Assembly: GCF_001865575.2 (NCBI RefSeq)
Contig: NZ_CP017561.2
Location: 3,581,993 to 3,645,992, forward strand
Length of the DNA: 64,000 nucleotides
Direction: 5' to 3'
Source: Paraburkholderia sprentiae WSM5005
Lineage (GTDB): Bacteria > Pseudomonadota > Gammaproteobacteria > Burkholderiales > Burkholderiaceae
How positions within the stretch are numbered: position 1 is the stretch's first letter; the number at the start of each line of letters is the position of its first letter. Shown here piece by piece: positions 43,138 through 46,696 of the stretch. Below the pieces are notes generated by a model. That model was not told where the DNA came from, searched no databases, and saw nothing but the letters and a program-made list of their open reading frames with translations. Both the position numbers and the translations under genes were made by a program.

Positions 43138-44058
43138 CTACCCTCCGCGCGCCGCGCCTGCCCGATCCGCCACCTCGTTCCACAGATGCATCGCGGCATA
43201 CGCGCGATACGGCCGCCAGGCGTCCGTGCGGCTGCGCTGCTGCGCGGGCCGTACGAGCGAAGGATCGCGCGCGCAGATCGATTGCATGAGCACGAGATCC
43301 GACGCGGGCCATGCATCCGCATCGCGCCATGCGCGCATGGCGACGTATTCGACGGTCCATGGGCCGATGCCGGCGAGCGCGAGCAACGCGGCGCGCAGGC
43401 TCGCGGCGTCGACGGTATCGCTGCTGTCGAGCGGCACGTCGCCGCTCGCGACCGCGCGCGCGAAGCCCTGCAACGCGGCGACGCGTTTGCCCGGCATGCC
43501 GATCTTCGCGAGATCGACTTCGGCGAGCGCGGCCGGCGTCGGAAAACGCCATGCGGTGTTTTGATGAGGATGCCCGTCGATGGGTTCGCCCGCGCGTTGC
43601 ACGAGACGTCCGATGATCGTCGTCGCGGCCTTCACGCTGATCTGCTGGCCGACTATCGCGCGCACCACCAGTTCGAAGCCGGACCACGCGCCCGGCACGC
43701 GCAGGCCCGGCACCGCGGCGACGAGCGGCGCGAGCCAGGGATCGGCGGCGAGCCCGGCGGCGATCTTGTTTGGATCGGCCCGCAGATCGAACATCCTCGC
43801 GACTGGCGCGGCGAGCGCATCGGCGTGACGGCTCGCAGGCCCTTCGATGCTCGCGACGATGCAGCGCTTGCGCGGATGCAACCGCACGCTGAGCGTGCCG
43901 CTGTCGCCGTTCCAGTCGATCCCGCGGCGATACGCGCCGTCCTCGACGGCCTCGACGCCCGGCGTCGCGCGACCGCTGAAAAAGCGCAGCAGCCGCGGCC
44001 AGTCGAACGGTGCGTTGAACGGCAAGTCGAGCGTTGCGACGTCGTTAAGCGTGCTCAA
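43138..44058 (-). CDS. alkA: DNA-3-methyladenine glycosylase II (AlkA)
   Basis: A 306-residue base-excision enzyme. An N-terminal AlkA_N-like domain (LPFNAPFDWPRLLRFFSGRATPGVEAVEDGAYRR) is followed by the HhH-GPD domain: GAWSGFELVVRAIVGQQISVKAATTIIGRLVQ, hairpin-helix-hairpin IGMPGKRVAALQGFARAV, LAGIGPWTVEYVAMRAW and the catalytic Asp in WPASDLVLMQSI. It removes alkylated purines. Its start overlaps the end of ada by four bases, so the two are co-translated as one adaptive-response operon. Confidence 0.94.
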   Translation of the reverse strand: MSTLNDVATLDLPFNAPFDWPRLLRFFSGRATPGVEAVEDGAYRRGIDWNGDSGTLSVRLHPRKRCIVASIEGPASRHADALAAPVARMFDLRADPNKIAAGLAADPWLAPLVAAVPGLRVPGAWSGFELVVRAIVGQQISVKAATTIIGRLVQRAGEPIDGHPHQNTAWRFPTPAALAEVDLAKIGMPGKRVAALQGFARAVASGDVPLDSSDTVDAASLRAALLALAGIGPWTVEYVAMRAWRDADAWPASDLVLMQSICARDPSLVRPAQQRSRTDAWRPYRAYAAMHLWNEVADRAGAARGG

Positions 44059-45245
44059 GCGGCGTGATCCAGGTGGGAGTCGTGGGCGTCGGCATCGGTG
44101 CAGCTGGCGTCGCGGCGCGGCGCGTCGCCGGCTGAAGCGCCGCCAGTGTGCTGCGCCTCATTGTCGAGCAACGCGGCCTTGCGCGGCAGCCCCCAGCGAT
44201 AACCGGCGAGCGCCCCGCCTTTCTGCACGACGCGATGACATGGGATCGCAAGCGCGACCGGGTTGGTCGCGCACGCGCTCGCGACGGCGCGTACCGCTCG
44301 CGGCGAGCCGACCGCCTCGGCGATCTGCGAATAGCTGCGCGTCTCGCCGTACGGGATGCGTCGCAGAGCATCCCACACGCGCTGCTTGAACGCGGTCGAC
44401 GCGATGTCGAGCGGTAGGTCGAAGTGTTGGCGCGTGCCGTTCAGATACGCGTCGATCTGCGCGATGAACGGCGTGAGCCGCCCGGTGTCTTCGCGCAGCT
44501 CGGCATTCGCGAACTCGCCGCGTAATTCGTCGATCAGCAGCGCGGTGTCATCGCCGAAACCGATCTTGCAGATGCCTTTGTCGGTTGCGGCGACCAGCAC
44601 GAAGCCGAGCGAAGTGGGTGCGCTCGCATAGCGCACCGTCAGCCCAGCGCCCTTGCGACGATAAGCGGACGGCGCCATGCCGAGCTCGGCTGCCGCGCTG
44701 TCGTACATTCGCGACGGCGAGCCGAAACCGGCGTCGAGCGTCGCGCGCGTGACGTCGGCGCCGCCCTGCAGCGCATCACGCAACGCGGCGCCGCGCTGCG
44801 CGGCCTGATACTGACGCGGCGACACGCCGACCACGCGCTTGAACAGGCGTTGCAAATGAAACGGGCTCACGTGCACGGCATCGCCCAGTTGCGCGAGCGT
44901 GAGGCGCCGCTGGGGATCGGCGTCGAGCGCGGCGCACGCCTTGGCGACGATGCCGAGTTCGCGCGGCAAGCCGCCGGGCTGGCAGCGCTTGCAATCGCGA
45001 AAGCCCGCGGCGCGCGCGGCGGCGGCATCGGTGAAAAAGGCGACGTTTTCGCGGCGCGGCTGGCGCGACGCGCACGACGGCCGGCAGAACACGCCGGTCG
45101 TTCTGACTGCATAGAAGAATGCGCCGTCGGCGTCGCGCTCGCGATGGGTGACGGCGTCCCAGCGCTCGTCGTCGGTGCGCCACTGGGAGGCGTCGAAGTC
45201 GGCGTCGGTGCGAACGGTGGCGAAATGGCGGAGGGTGGCGTTCAT
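44055..45245 (-). CDS. ada: bifunctional Ada: methylphosphotriester/O6-methylguanine methyltransferase and regulator
   Basis: A 396-residue protein with all three Ada parts. The N-terminal zinc domain has four cysteines (GVFCRPSCASRQPRRENVAFF ... FRDCKRCQP), of which the first accepts methyl groups from phosphotriesters. The AraC-type helix-turn-helix is near residues 110-200 (LTLAQLGDAVHVSPFHLQRLFKRVVGVSPRQYQ). The C-terminal MGMT domain has the acceptor-Cys motif IPCHRVVQKGG. Methylated Ada activates ada and alkA. In-frame starts further upstream (45287 and 45446) are possible, but 45245 matches the family start. Confidence 0.94.
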   Translation of the reverse strand: MNATLRHFATVRTDADFDASQWRTDDERWDAVTHRERDADGAFFYAVRTTGVFCRPSCASRQPRRENVAFFTDAAAARAAGFRDCKRCQPGGLPRELGIVAKACAALDADPQRRLTLAQLGDAVHVSPFHLQRLFKRVVGVSPRQYQAAQRGAALRDALQGGADVTRATLDAGFGSPSRMYDSAAAELGMAPSAYRRKGAGLTVRYASAPTSLGFVLVAATDKGICKIGFGDDTALLIDELRGEFANAELREDTGRLTPFIAQIDAYLNGTRQHFDLPLDIASTAFKQRVWDALRRIPYGETRSYSQIAEAVGSPRAVRAVASACATNPVALAIPCHRVVQKGGALAGYRWGLPRKAALLDNEAQHTGGASAGDAPRRDASCTDADAHDSHLDHAA

Positions 45246-45481
45246 GATGTCTTGGGGCCCGGATGGGCAGGCAATGTCGATGCTCATCAATCTAGGCCCG
45301 ATCGTTACACAGTACGCGCCGGTTCTTGCTCTGTCATTCGGCCGCGCTGGGCTTGTCTTCGCGCTCATGGGGTCGTGACGGGTTAATCGCGTCCGAAGCG
45401 CTGCGGAACGTTCTGCCGCGGGGCGTTTTGCCTCAAGGCGCGTCAATTTCGCACGGTACCGGGTTTTCCCTTAAAAAGTTA
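45246..45481. other. non-coding region upstream of ada and of the small RNA
   Basis: No gene was seen. It must carry the ada promoter on the complement, but no clear -10/-35 pair or Ada box was identified. Confidence 0.35.
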
Positions 45482-45510
45482 TTGCGTCGCACCAACCCGA
45501 TGTGTATATT
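45482..45510 (+). promoter_or_regulatory. sigma70-type promoter of the small RNA
   Basis: TTGCGT (45482-45487) and TATATT (45505-45510) are separated by exactly 17 bases. It is followed at normal distance by a short transcript with its own terminator and no adjacent gene start. Confidence 0.7.
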
Positions 45511-45515
45511 AGTAC

Positions 45516-45579
45516 TTGTCTCCTCCATGTCTCCTCCTGATATGGATTCAGCCCGCTCCACTCGAGCGGGCTTTTTTTT
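45516..45579 (+). ncRNA. candidate small RNA with two anti-Shine-Dalgarno CUCCUCC motifs
   Basis: A predicted transcript of about 64 bases starts near 45516, six or so bases after the -10, and ends at a strong terminator at 45579. CTCCTCC occurs twice (45520-45526 and 45531-45537), both in the expected single-stranded 5' part. Such motifs complement ribosome-binding sites and mark the 'cuckoo'/CcsR-like anti-SD small RNAs known from alpha- and betaproteobacteria. No credible reading frame uses this segment. Relationship to that family is inferred from motif and architecture only. Confidence 0.7.
45551..45579 (+). terminator. rho-independent terminator of the small RNA
   Basis: GCCCGCTC/GAGCGGGC perfect 8-base stem, 5-base loop, followed by eight T. 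There is no rightward gene upstream that would need it: the gene to the left (ada) runs leftward. Confidence 0.9.
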
Positions 45580-45672
45580 GTCCGTTCCGCCGCGACTTCC
45601 CGCCGATCCGCCCCCGCCCGATCTCCTACACTTCGCTAATCGGCTCTCCGAACTAGCCAAAGGGCGTTCCAC

Positions 45673-46098
45673 ATGAAAATCCACATTCGCGAGATCGACC
45701 ACGTCGTGATCCGGGCGACGGACGTCGAAACCCTCACGCGCTTTTACTGCGACGTGCTCGGTTGCAGTGTCGAGAAAGAGCAGCGCGAACTCGGCCTCAC
45801 GCAACTGCGCGCGGGCCGGTCGCTGATCGATCTGTTGCAGGTCGGCGCGAAGCTCGATCGCGCGGAAAACGGCGCGGTGGGCACGGGACGCAACATGGAT
45901 CACCTGTGTCTGCGGGTCGAGTCGTTCGACGCCGACGCGCTGAAGGCGCATTTGAGCGCGCATGGCGCGCGGCTAGGCGAACAGGGAATGCGTTATGGCG
46001 CGGATGGTTTCGGGCCGTCGCTATATCTGTTCGACCCGGAGGGCAACATGATCGAATTGAAGGGGCCGCCGGAAGCGGCGCGGGTCACCTCGCTCTGA
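45673..46098 (+). CDS. VOC family (glyoxalase/bleomycin-resistance fold) protein
   Basis: A 141-residue two-module vicinal-oxygen-chelate protein: IREIDHVVIRATDVETLTRFYCDVLGCSVEKEQRELGLTQLRAG and NMDHLCLRVESFDADALKAHL, ending LYLFDPEGNMIELKGP. His in IDHVVI and MDHLCL and Glu in MIELKG are probable metal ligands. Family members include lyases, isomerases and dioxygenases, and the substrate cannot be told. It is convergent with yaeQ. Confidence 0.88.
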   Translation: MKIHIREIDHVVIRATDVETLTRFYCDVLGCSVEKEQRELGLTQLRAGRSLIDLLQVGAKLDRAENGAVGTGRNMDHLCLRVESFDADALKAHLSAHGARLGEQGMRYGADGFGPSLYLFDPEGNMIELKGPPEAARVTSL

Positions 46099-46141
46099 AG
46101 GCGGCGACGAAGCAACCCGAACCGCGATCAGATTTGAGCCA

Positions 46142-46696
46142 TCACGCGTCGGCGGGCGGTTTCAATACGGTCCAGTCGATCTTCACCGCATCGGCTTCGG
46201 CGCTGCCGAGCCACGCCTCGCCGTCCTGCACCGTGCATTGCAGCCGCATCGTGCGTTCGGCAAGCGAGCCGAGCGATGCCGCGACGTCCTCGCCGAGCGT
46301 CCACACCGTCACGTTGCGCAGGCGTTCGACCTTGTTGCGCACGCCCTGCCACCAGATCTCCGAGGTGCGCCCGCCATACGCGATGACGACCACGCGATTC
46401 GCGCGTCCGCTCGCCTTCGCGATGCGGCGCTCGTCGGGCTGTCCGACCTCGATCCACGTTTCGATCGCGCCGGTCAGGTCCTTCGCCCAAAGATCCGGTT
46501 CGTCGACATCCGATAAGCCTTTGCAAAACTCCAGCCGTTCCTGCGCGAACAGCGCGAACGCGGCGACGCGGACCATCATCCGTTCGTCGGTTTCCGAGGG
46601 GTGACGGGCGATCGTCAGCGAATGGTCGGCGTAATAGTGCCGGTCCATGTCCGCGATCTGCAGTTCCGCCTTGTATATCGTCGATTTGAGAGCCAT
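46142..46696 (-). CDS. yaeQ: YaeQ family protein
   Basis: A 184-residue YaeQ protein (PD-(D/E)XK nuclease-like fold): MALKSTIYKAELQIADMDRHYYADHSLTIARHPSETDERMMVRVAAFALFA, then DEPDLWAKDLTGAIETWIEVGQPDERRIAKASGRANRVVVIAYG, with the nuclease-like acidic and Lys residues, and a C-terminal tungsten-formylmethanofuran-like tail. In E. coli it was linked to suppression of rfaH loss; the biochemical role is unknown. The start at 46696 matches the family; the frame to 46786 is a spurious extension. Confidence 0.93.
   Translation of the reverse strand: MALKSTIYKAELQIADMDRHYYADHSLTIARHPSETDERMMVRVAAFALFAQERLEFCKGLSDVDEPDLWAKDLTGAIETWIEVGQPDERRIAKASGRANRVVVIAYGGRTSEIWWQGVRNKVERLRNVTVWTLGEDVAASLGSLAERTMRLQCTVQDGEAWLGSAEADAVKIDWTVLKPPADA

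Follow-up and report, generated by a model that had tools for sequence, protein, structure and literature searches.

An RF02278 small RNA of Paraburkholderia sprentiae with a conserved PhaR-operator-like site at its putative promoter

In the window, by which we mean the whole 64,000-nucleotide stretch of Paraburkholderia sprentiae WSM5005 DNA that was analysed, a small RNA lies between an ada gene and a gene for a glyoxalase-fold (VOC) protein. The four neighbours examined encode Ada, AlkA, the VOC protein and YaeQ (Pfam), and the features of the locus are the following.

44055-45245, minus strand: ada, with Pfam Ada domains, divergent from the small RNA
45460..45477, plus strand: conserved upstream block CGGGTTTTCCCTTAAAAA; GGGTTTTCCC is found in 64 of 116 named loci, its position constant
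45479..45495, plus strand: PhaR-operator-like palindrome TTATTGCGTCGCACCAA, agreeing with 16 of the 17 positions of YTKNTGCRNYGCANMAR and overlapping the -35 element
45482..45487, plus strand: putative -35 hexamer TTGCGT, read from the sequence, inside the palindrome, its position kept in orthologues
45505..45510, plus strand: putative -10 hexamer TATATT, read from the sequence, kept in orthologues
45517..45579, plus strand: RF02278 small RNA of ~63 nt (cmscan 82.9 bits, gathering cut-off 50, full length, 1-64/64)
45520..45526, plus strand: first CUCCUCC; in the predicted fold its CUCC is single-stranded and its UCC lies in stem 1
45524..45546, plus strand: hairpin 1, 8 pairs in the predicted fold, the same stem as in the RF02278 consensus
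45531..45537, plus strand: second CUCCUCC, nearly all of it (UCCUCCU) in loop 1, 45532-45538, of the predicted fold
45550..45579, plus strand: intrinsic terminator with a 9-pair stem at 45550-45572, 7 of the pairs being G-C, followed by a T run
45673-46098, plus strand: glyoxalase-fold (VOC) gene, starting just over 90 bases past the terminator

An earlier, sequence-only reading had described a stand-alone small RNA here, preceded by a TTGCGT-N17-TATATT promoter, furnished with two tandem CTCCTCC motifs and a perfect-stem terminator, devoid of a credible reading frame and divergent from ada. At the sequence level this observation is confirmed, coordinates and elements included: a 17-base spacer separates the two hexamers, both anti-Shine-Dalgarno motifs and the terminator stem with its T run are in place, the RNA appears to have a promoter of its own, and among the reading frames covering 45517-45579 none looked like a gene on inspection. 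The predicted fold comprises two hairpins (-28.0 kcal/mol; z -7.4 against 200 single-base shuffles). CTCCTCC by itself is not rare in the window (6 observed versus 4.55 expected), and the whole RNA lies far above chance (RF02278 E 2.5e-15 in a search over the window). Among 24 diverse members, no pair of hairpin 1 changed on both sides, because this hairpin is nearly invariant, and covariation was confined to the terminator stem, as for any terminator. When automatic single-sequence folds were judged by a crude rule (a C-rich free 5' end plus CCTC or CTCC in the first loop), 35 of 93 order-level RNAs conformed; the anti-Shine-Dalgarno display is therefore clear for the window RNA and may not extend to all of its relatives.

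No promoter came out of a simple sigma-70 scan of 44500-46500, TTGCGT sharing just three of six places with TTGACA; that the promoter is real is supported by the conservation of its elements in orthologues. With respect to the upstream block, the GGGNNNNCCCTTAAAAA pattern had one match in the genome, that of the window, and a regulon for block GGGTTTTCCCTTAAAAA was rejected, the genome search having returned the window copy alone. GGG-N4-CCC was not enriched either (4 of 93 order-level promoters versus 3.1% of control windows). Some Paraburkholderia, e.g. P. tropica, have a copy with AGGGGAAAACCCTA between -35 and -10, the core of which is the reverse complement of the upstream block.

Betaproteobacteria_toxic_sRNA (RF02278), a family reportedly known since a toxicity screen of 2012, is the sole Rfam family above cut-off in the window and is matched end to end; that the RNA at 45517-45579 is a full-length member is virtually certain. 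It displays the structural traits of the family, i.e. two hairpins, a CU-rich 5' end and loop, and an intrinsic terminator. Each of the 58 genomes sampled from the genus has RF02278 (3 to 9 matches per genome at E <= 0.001), and a 38-base pattern occurred, among the matches listed, in Paraburkholderia, Caballeronia, Trinickia, Pararobbsia, Mycetohabitans and Burkholderia. The Rfam match and the genus-wide presence make the RNA another copy within an established family. The P. sprentiae genome holds four copies over the cut-off and a weak one, in keeping with the several copies expected of RF02278: three to five per genome were reported for Burkholderia (PMC5688073) and four relatives for Herbaspirillum (PMC7011215), Bordetella being a further genus in which relatives have already been described (PMC11722255). 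Relatives are expressed, and cloned copies inhibit the growth of E. coli (PMC4603805, PMC5688073). One of the over-cut-off copies (L004:1501-1559) sits on a 488-kb contig (C5), possibly a plasmid or small replicon, behind a promoter without a PhaR-like site, and the weak fifth copy (L005:1501-1572 on contig C2, 35.5 bits) lies just before a frame with a DnaJ-like start. Besides, some Gammaproteobacteria have tandem copies ~105-155 bases apart (L168 in G202, G341:C3, G320:C3 and G234:C27).

The sequence-only reading had also placed the RNA beside an alkylation-repair locus. While the adjacency to ada stands, the setting itself looks incidental, as an Ada relative lies upstream in 63 of the 109 copies flanked by 1 kb or more on either side, and a VOC relative lies downstream in 78 of them. 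These 109 come from 150 pattern matches, 120 of them at named loci; 41 were too near an edge, and some genomes are present twice. A similar split applies to the proposed kinship with the cuckoo/CcsR RNAs, which bear CUCCUCC-type motifs as the window RNA does. The covariance search against Rfam that had been suggested did confirm a small RNA family, but this family is RF02278, the only one over the cut-off, and the cuckoo identity fell. Cuckoo/CcsR RNAs are associated with DUF1127 proteins in alphaproteobacteria (PMC10253847), and no DUF1127 gene is among the four neighbours examined. Since promoter-like sequence directly precedes the window RNA, a joint RNase E precursor of the cuckoo type is unlikely as well. 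The anti-hemB RNA (RF02837) has, in the alignment, a similar two-hairpin plan with CUCCUCC; membership was rejected at 34.1 bits against a cut-off of 49.5.

The double-hairpin RNAs ncS03, ncS05, ncS27 and ncS62 of Burkholderia cenocepacia, likewise of RF02278, resemble the window RNA in their two hairpins, CU-rich 5' end and loop, terminator and several copies per genome. All four are expressed as separate transcripts of 57-92 nt (PMC5688073, PMC4603805). Going by what PMC4603805 gives, ncS05 alone among them fits the gene-arrow pattern of the window, a likeness confined to the arrows; the window copy differs from these relatives in lying in a Paraburkholderia-type genome, beside ada and the VOC gene. 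In glucose medium, ncS03, ncS05 and ncS27 went up 8.0-, 6.9- and 4.3-fold, respectively (PMC5688073); the three also rise on starvation, and ncS27 overexpression slows growth (PMC5688073, PMC4603805). What controls the levels of these RNAs, and of other sRNAs in B. cenocepacia, was stated to be unknown, and the words phaR and polyhydroxy are absent from the accessible text of that paper (PMC5688073). In Bordetella pertussis, S17 (S17S) has a 5' end closely similar to that of the window RNA. S17 is bound by Hfq and represses one target at the ribosome-binding region in a translational reporter test, and S17S is not similarly toxic (PMC11722255). Unlike the window RNA with its directly preceding promoter-like sequence, S17S is made by RNase E from a 190-nt precursor; the authors postulate an unnamed repressor of the S17 promoter, and neither phaR nor polyhydroxy occurs as a word in the accessible text of their report (PMC11722255).

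Relatives extend beyond the genus. An RF02278 search of a Gammaproteobacteria sample gave matches at E <= 0.001 in 103 of 369 genomes, only 3 of them over the cut-off. Judged by their sequences, the best of the sub-threshold matches are more than noise; CTCCTCCATCCTCCTTTGGTGG, exact or slightly varied, recurs together with a terminator in most of the fetched ones, and at 20 such loci no Rfam family reached its cut-off at that place. A model built from 24 sequences of this 369-genome class sample (R1; 22 sub-threshold matches, L003 and L155) matched 161 of the 369 genomes of the class and 124 of 200 genomes of the order; in a phylum sample it matched 25 of 200 (10 outside the class, none better than E 4e-6). 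Of the 30 class loci fetched (L214-L243), 22 have rplM downstream on the same strand, as do 52 of 93 order loci; OsmC or coq7 stands on the other side of the rplM-linked sRNA in many, and the P. sprentiae copy L003 lies ~215 bases upstream of rplM-rpsI. As far as sequence comparison can tell, related RNAs below the Rfam cut-off are widespread in Gammaproteobacteria, often just upstream of rplM-rpsI. Since this neighbourhood recurs and P. sprentiae has its own L003 there, the window copy looks like a paralogue of an apparently ancestral rplM-linked RNA. Our narrow literature search found no rplM-linked sRNA of this kind in print. The coq7 neighbour of Bordetella S17 is also present at L155 and L156, i.e. 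the same neighbourhood without rplM. In L171 and L177, both from Gammaproteobacteria, a tandem glycine riboswitch follows a related sRNA, on its strand, at a distance of ~130 bases.

The palindrome over the putative -35 element resembles the operator of PhaR, the regulator that binds PHB and so senses this stored carbon polymer. For Ralstonia eutropha, the PhaR consensus YTKNTGCRNYGCANMAR was derived from sites already known and applied with a tolerance of up to three mismatches; gel shifts showed PhaR binding at sites that it predicted (PMC12849132). The P. sprentiae genome encodes PhaR (PF07879, 109 bits), and the window site departs from the consensus at a single position, an A for K that is itself kept in orthologues; the site of the paralogue L002, ATGTTGCAACGCACCAA, also agrees at 16 of 17 positions. 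Of 117 named loci (those of 120 with at least 70 bases upstream), 82 match YTKNTGCRNYGCANMAR with one mismatch at best, 7 with two and 28 with at least three, whereas shuffled promoters reached two mismatches in 0.56% and one mismatch never. TTGC-N3-GCA is kept in 90 of 116 loci, in all of which the central three bases fit R-N-Y; the loci without it include a second paralogue locus, whose promoter is of a different type, and certain Caballeronia in which the right arm is broken. Over 71 distinct orthologue promoters, the specified motif columns average 90% identity versus 75% in the nine bases after. As a positive control, the promoter of the best-scoring phasin gene of P. sprentiae (L286) is bracketed by two one-mismatch sites, the first ahead of -35 and the second past -10; the weaker phasin matches L287 and L288 have a two- and a one-mismatch site, respectively, within 260 bases, and the phaR gene stretch (L289) has no site with two or fewer mismatches. 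One-mismatch matches occur at four places in the 64-kb window, the sRNA site included, and TTGCNNCGCANCAA showed hardly any genome-wide enrichment (11 matches versus 8 for the reversed control pattern). The case for PhaR therefore rests on position and conservation, and the four one-mismatch places in the window slightly lower its odds. Among the other copies in this genome, L003 has three mismatches at best, L004 six and L005 five, so that PhaR cannot control all copies alike.

Whether the site tracks PhaR was addressed at 93 R1 loci of the Burkholderiales (L249 and 92 of the 97 matches at E <= 2.3e-8 in genomes other than that of P. sprentiae), PhaR being scored by PF07879 in the same 200-genome draw, of which 136 genomes have it; about a third of the loci had already been inspected for the site before the test, and most others were fetched later. 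A site with at most two mismatches within 150 bases was found in 50 of 63 loci with PhaR versus 2 of 30 without (Fisher p 1e-11), as opposed to 2.9% of windows elsewhere in the same loci (n=1431) and 1.0% of shuffles (n=1860). Counted by genome, the figures are 50 of 61 versus 2 of 22, and by family, with three mixed families set aside, 17 of 17 versus 0 of 7 (p 3e-6); these p values overstate independence, because the genomes are related. One of the two exceptions, G545, is an 85%-complete genome whose other sampled family members (G504, G460) have PhaR, and the other, G467, is a complete genome with the site and without PhaR. With 500 column-permuted motifs, 0.75 of the 63 loci were hit on average and never more than 6; with 500 palindromic half-site permutations the average was 1.5 and the maximum 42, never 50. 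In a further set of 54 loci, made up of the 5 remaining matches and weaker ones down to E 4e-6, the site was present in 19 of 47 with PhaR versus 1 of 7 without (p 0.24; control 3.3% of 604 windows), i.e. the enrichment of the site repeats and the PhaR contrast is not significant with only 7 loci lacking PhaR; the exception here, G522, is 87% complete, and the other sampled members of its family, G478 and G562, have PhaR. Outside the order, 4 of 10 loci with PhaR versus 3 of 30 without had the site, a borderline result (p 0.05).

A promoter-like pair facing the RNA could be read in 43 of the 50 positive loci, a count without a control and one in which the TTG at offset 3 may come from the motif. 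The -35 element starts 3 bases into the site in 15 of the 43, which is the window arrangement, and 21-25 bases after the start of the site in the other 28. The latter resembles R. eutropha phaP1, where the PhaR site lies directly upstream of -35 (PMC12849132). Several positive loci (e.g. L213, L306 and L322) yielded no OsmC gene; the site therefore does not merely belong to that gene.

The following proposal builds on what was observed: the family, structure and copy number of the RNA, the promoter site and how well it is conserved, and the association of this site with genomes that encode PhaR. The RF02278 sRNA would act in trans, its free 5' end and first loop presenting CUCC and UCCUCC; CUCCUCC is the reverse complement of the Shine-Dalgarno core. 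Judging from its relatives, it would base-pair with the Shine-Dalgarno sequences of many mRNAs and thereby keep their translation from starting. As long as no PHB is made, PhaR on the -35 element would keep the RNA low; in carbon surplus, when granules form, PhaR would be drawn to these, the RNA would be made, and uptake and catabolism would be damped through presumed targets in P. sprentiae. PhaR of R. eutropha is a repressor at phaP1, from which it departs once granules form, and an activator at phaP3 (PMC12849132). Given that PhaR can repress or activate, we infer the sign from position, a site on or just before -35 being expected to repress. By analogy, both the glucose induction of the B. 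cenocepacia relatives and the repressor postulated for S17 are consistent with PhaR control. Comparable wiring exists for MmgR of Sinorhizobium meliloti (RF00519), an sRNA repressed by AniA/PhaR via a TGC-N3-GCA site and tied to PHB, although MmgR is alphaproteobacterial and acts on phasin expression (PMC12542648, PMC9049629); as a candidate family for the window RNA, mmgR was rejected (24.3 bits against a cut-off of 41). That PhaR binds and controls the sRNA promoter we consider quite probable from position and conservation, and we also lean, a little less firmly, towards the entire chain from PHB granule formation to the release of a PhaR-repressed anti-Shine-Dalgarno sRNA. The literature search returned no PhaR link to an RF02278 RNA, the main functional study of ncS27 being outside its reach.

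A different regulator of PHB-making lineages might instead bind TGC-N3-GCA in front of the same anti-Shine-Dalgarno RNA. Presence and absence of the site are clustered by family, and lineages with PhaR may share other regulators; yet the 17-base match is to a consensus taken from published PhaR sites, by which predicted sites were found to bind PhaR (PMC12849132), permuted motifs fail, and the phasin promoter of P. sprentiae itself has the same kind of site, which leaves another regulator an unlikely answer. We give somewhat less credence to an RF02278 promoter that is essentially unregulated or follows growth rate, the palindrome being a conserved -35 with its flanks. It is true that TTGC itself makes up the -35 of the window promoter and of the 15 loci sharing its arrangement, that over the 71 distinct orthologue promoters the GGGTTTT upstream block is as well conserved as the palindrome, and that the related S17 promoter works in vitro with sigma-A polymerase alone (PMC11722255). 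Against this, the site lies upstream of -35, and not on it, in 28 of 43 loci, and downstream of -35 GCA (88-100%) and CAA (80-92%) are better kept than the 75% average of the nine bases after the site.

Finally, the RNA could be a cis-acting leader or attenuator of the VOC gene, or control its neighbours by read-through, rather than act in trans. The short distance to the VOC start, the VOC relatives downstream of most copies and the many relatives upstream of rplM on the same strand would suit such a role, but the terminator is strong, the paralogue L002 adjoins genes of the OmpW and LysE families, unrelated to those beside the window RNA, and the B. cenocepacia relatives accumulate as separate transcripts (PMC5688073, PMC4603805); we hold a cis-acting role to be very improbable. 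Repression by PhaR of a trans-acting RF02278 RNA hence stays the preferred reading. The family was known, and the PhaR-like promoter site and the wider, rplM-linked family are apparently new; a conserved putative PhaR operator that tracks PhaR across bacterial families suggests how the RNA may be switched on. If true, carbon storage would be joined to a broad brake on translation, and PhaR-over-small-RNA wiring would exist in both Alphaproteobacteria (MmgR) and Burkholderiales.

A wider reading, about which our opinion is nearly evenly divided, if tilted slightly towards doubt, would see RF02278 as the multiplied Burkholderiales branch of a class-wide sRNA born at rplM-rpsI that mimics the anti-Shine-Dalgarno tail of 16S rRNA. 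Placed under PhaR in the Burkholderiales, it would let the amount of stored PHB determine how far translation initiation is slowed at many genes for uptake and catabolism; PhaR would be the S17 repressor and also the signal so far missing for the induction of the double-hairpin RNAs of Burkholderia by carbon surplus. We also noted another sRNA subfamily, which starts TAGTTTCTCCTCTATTTCTCCTTTGTAGA and occurs in three or more families (L356, L362, L365, L370, L377 and similar), several members of which have a PhaR-like site at -28 or about -85.
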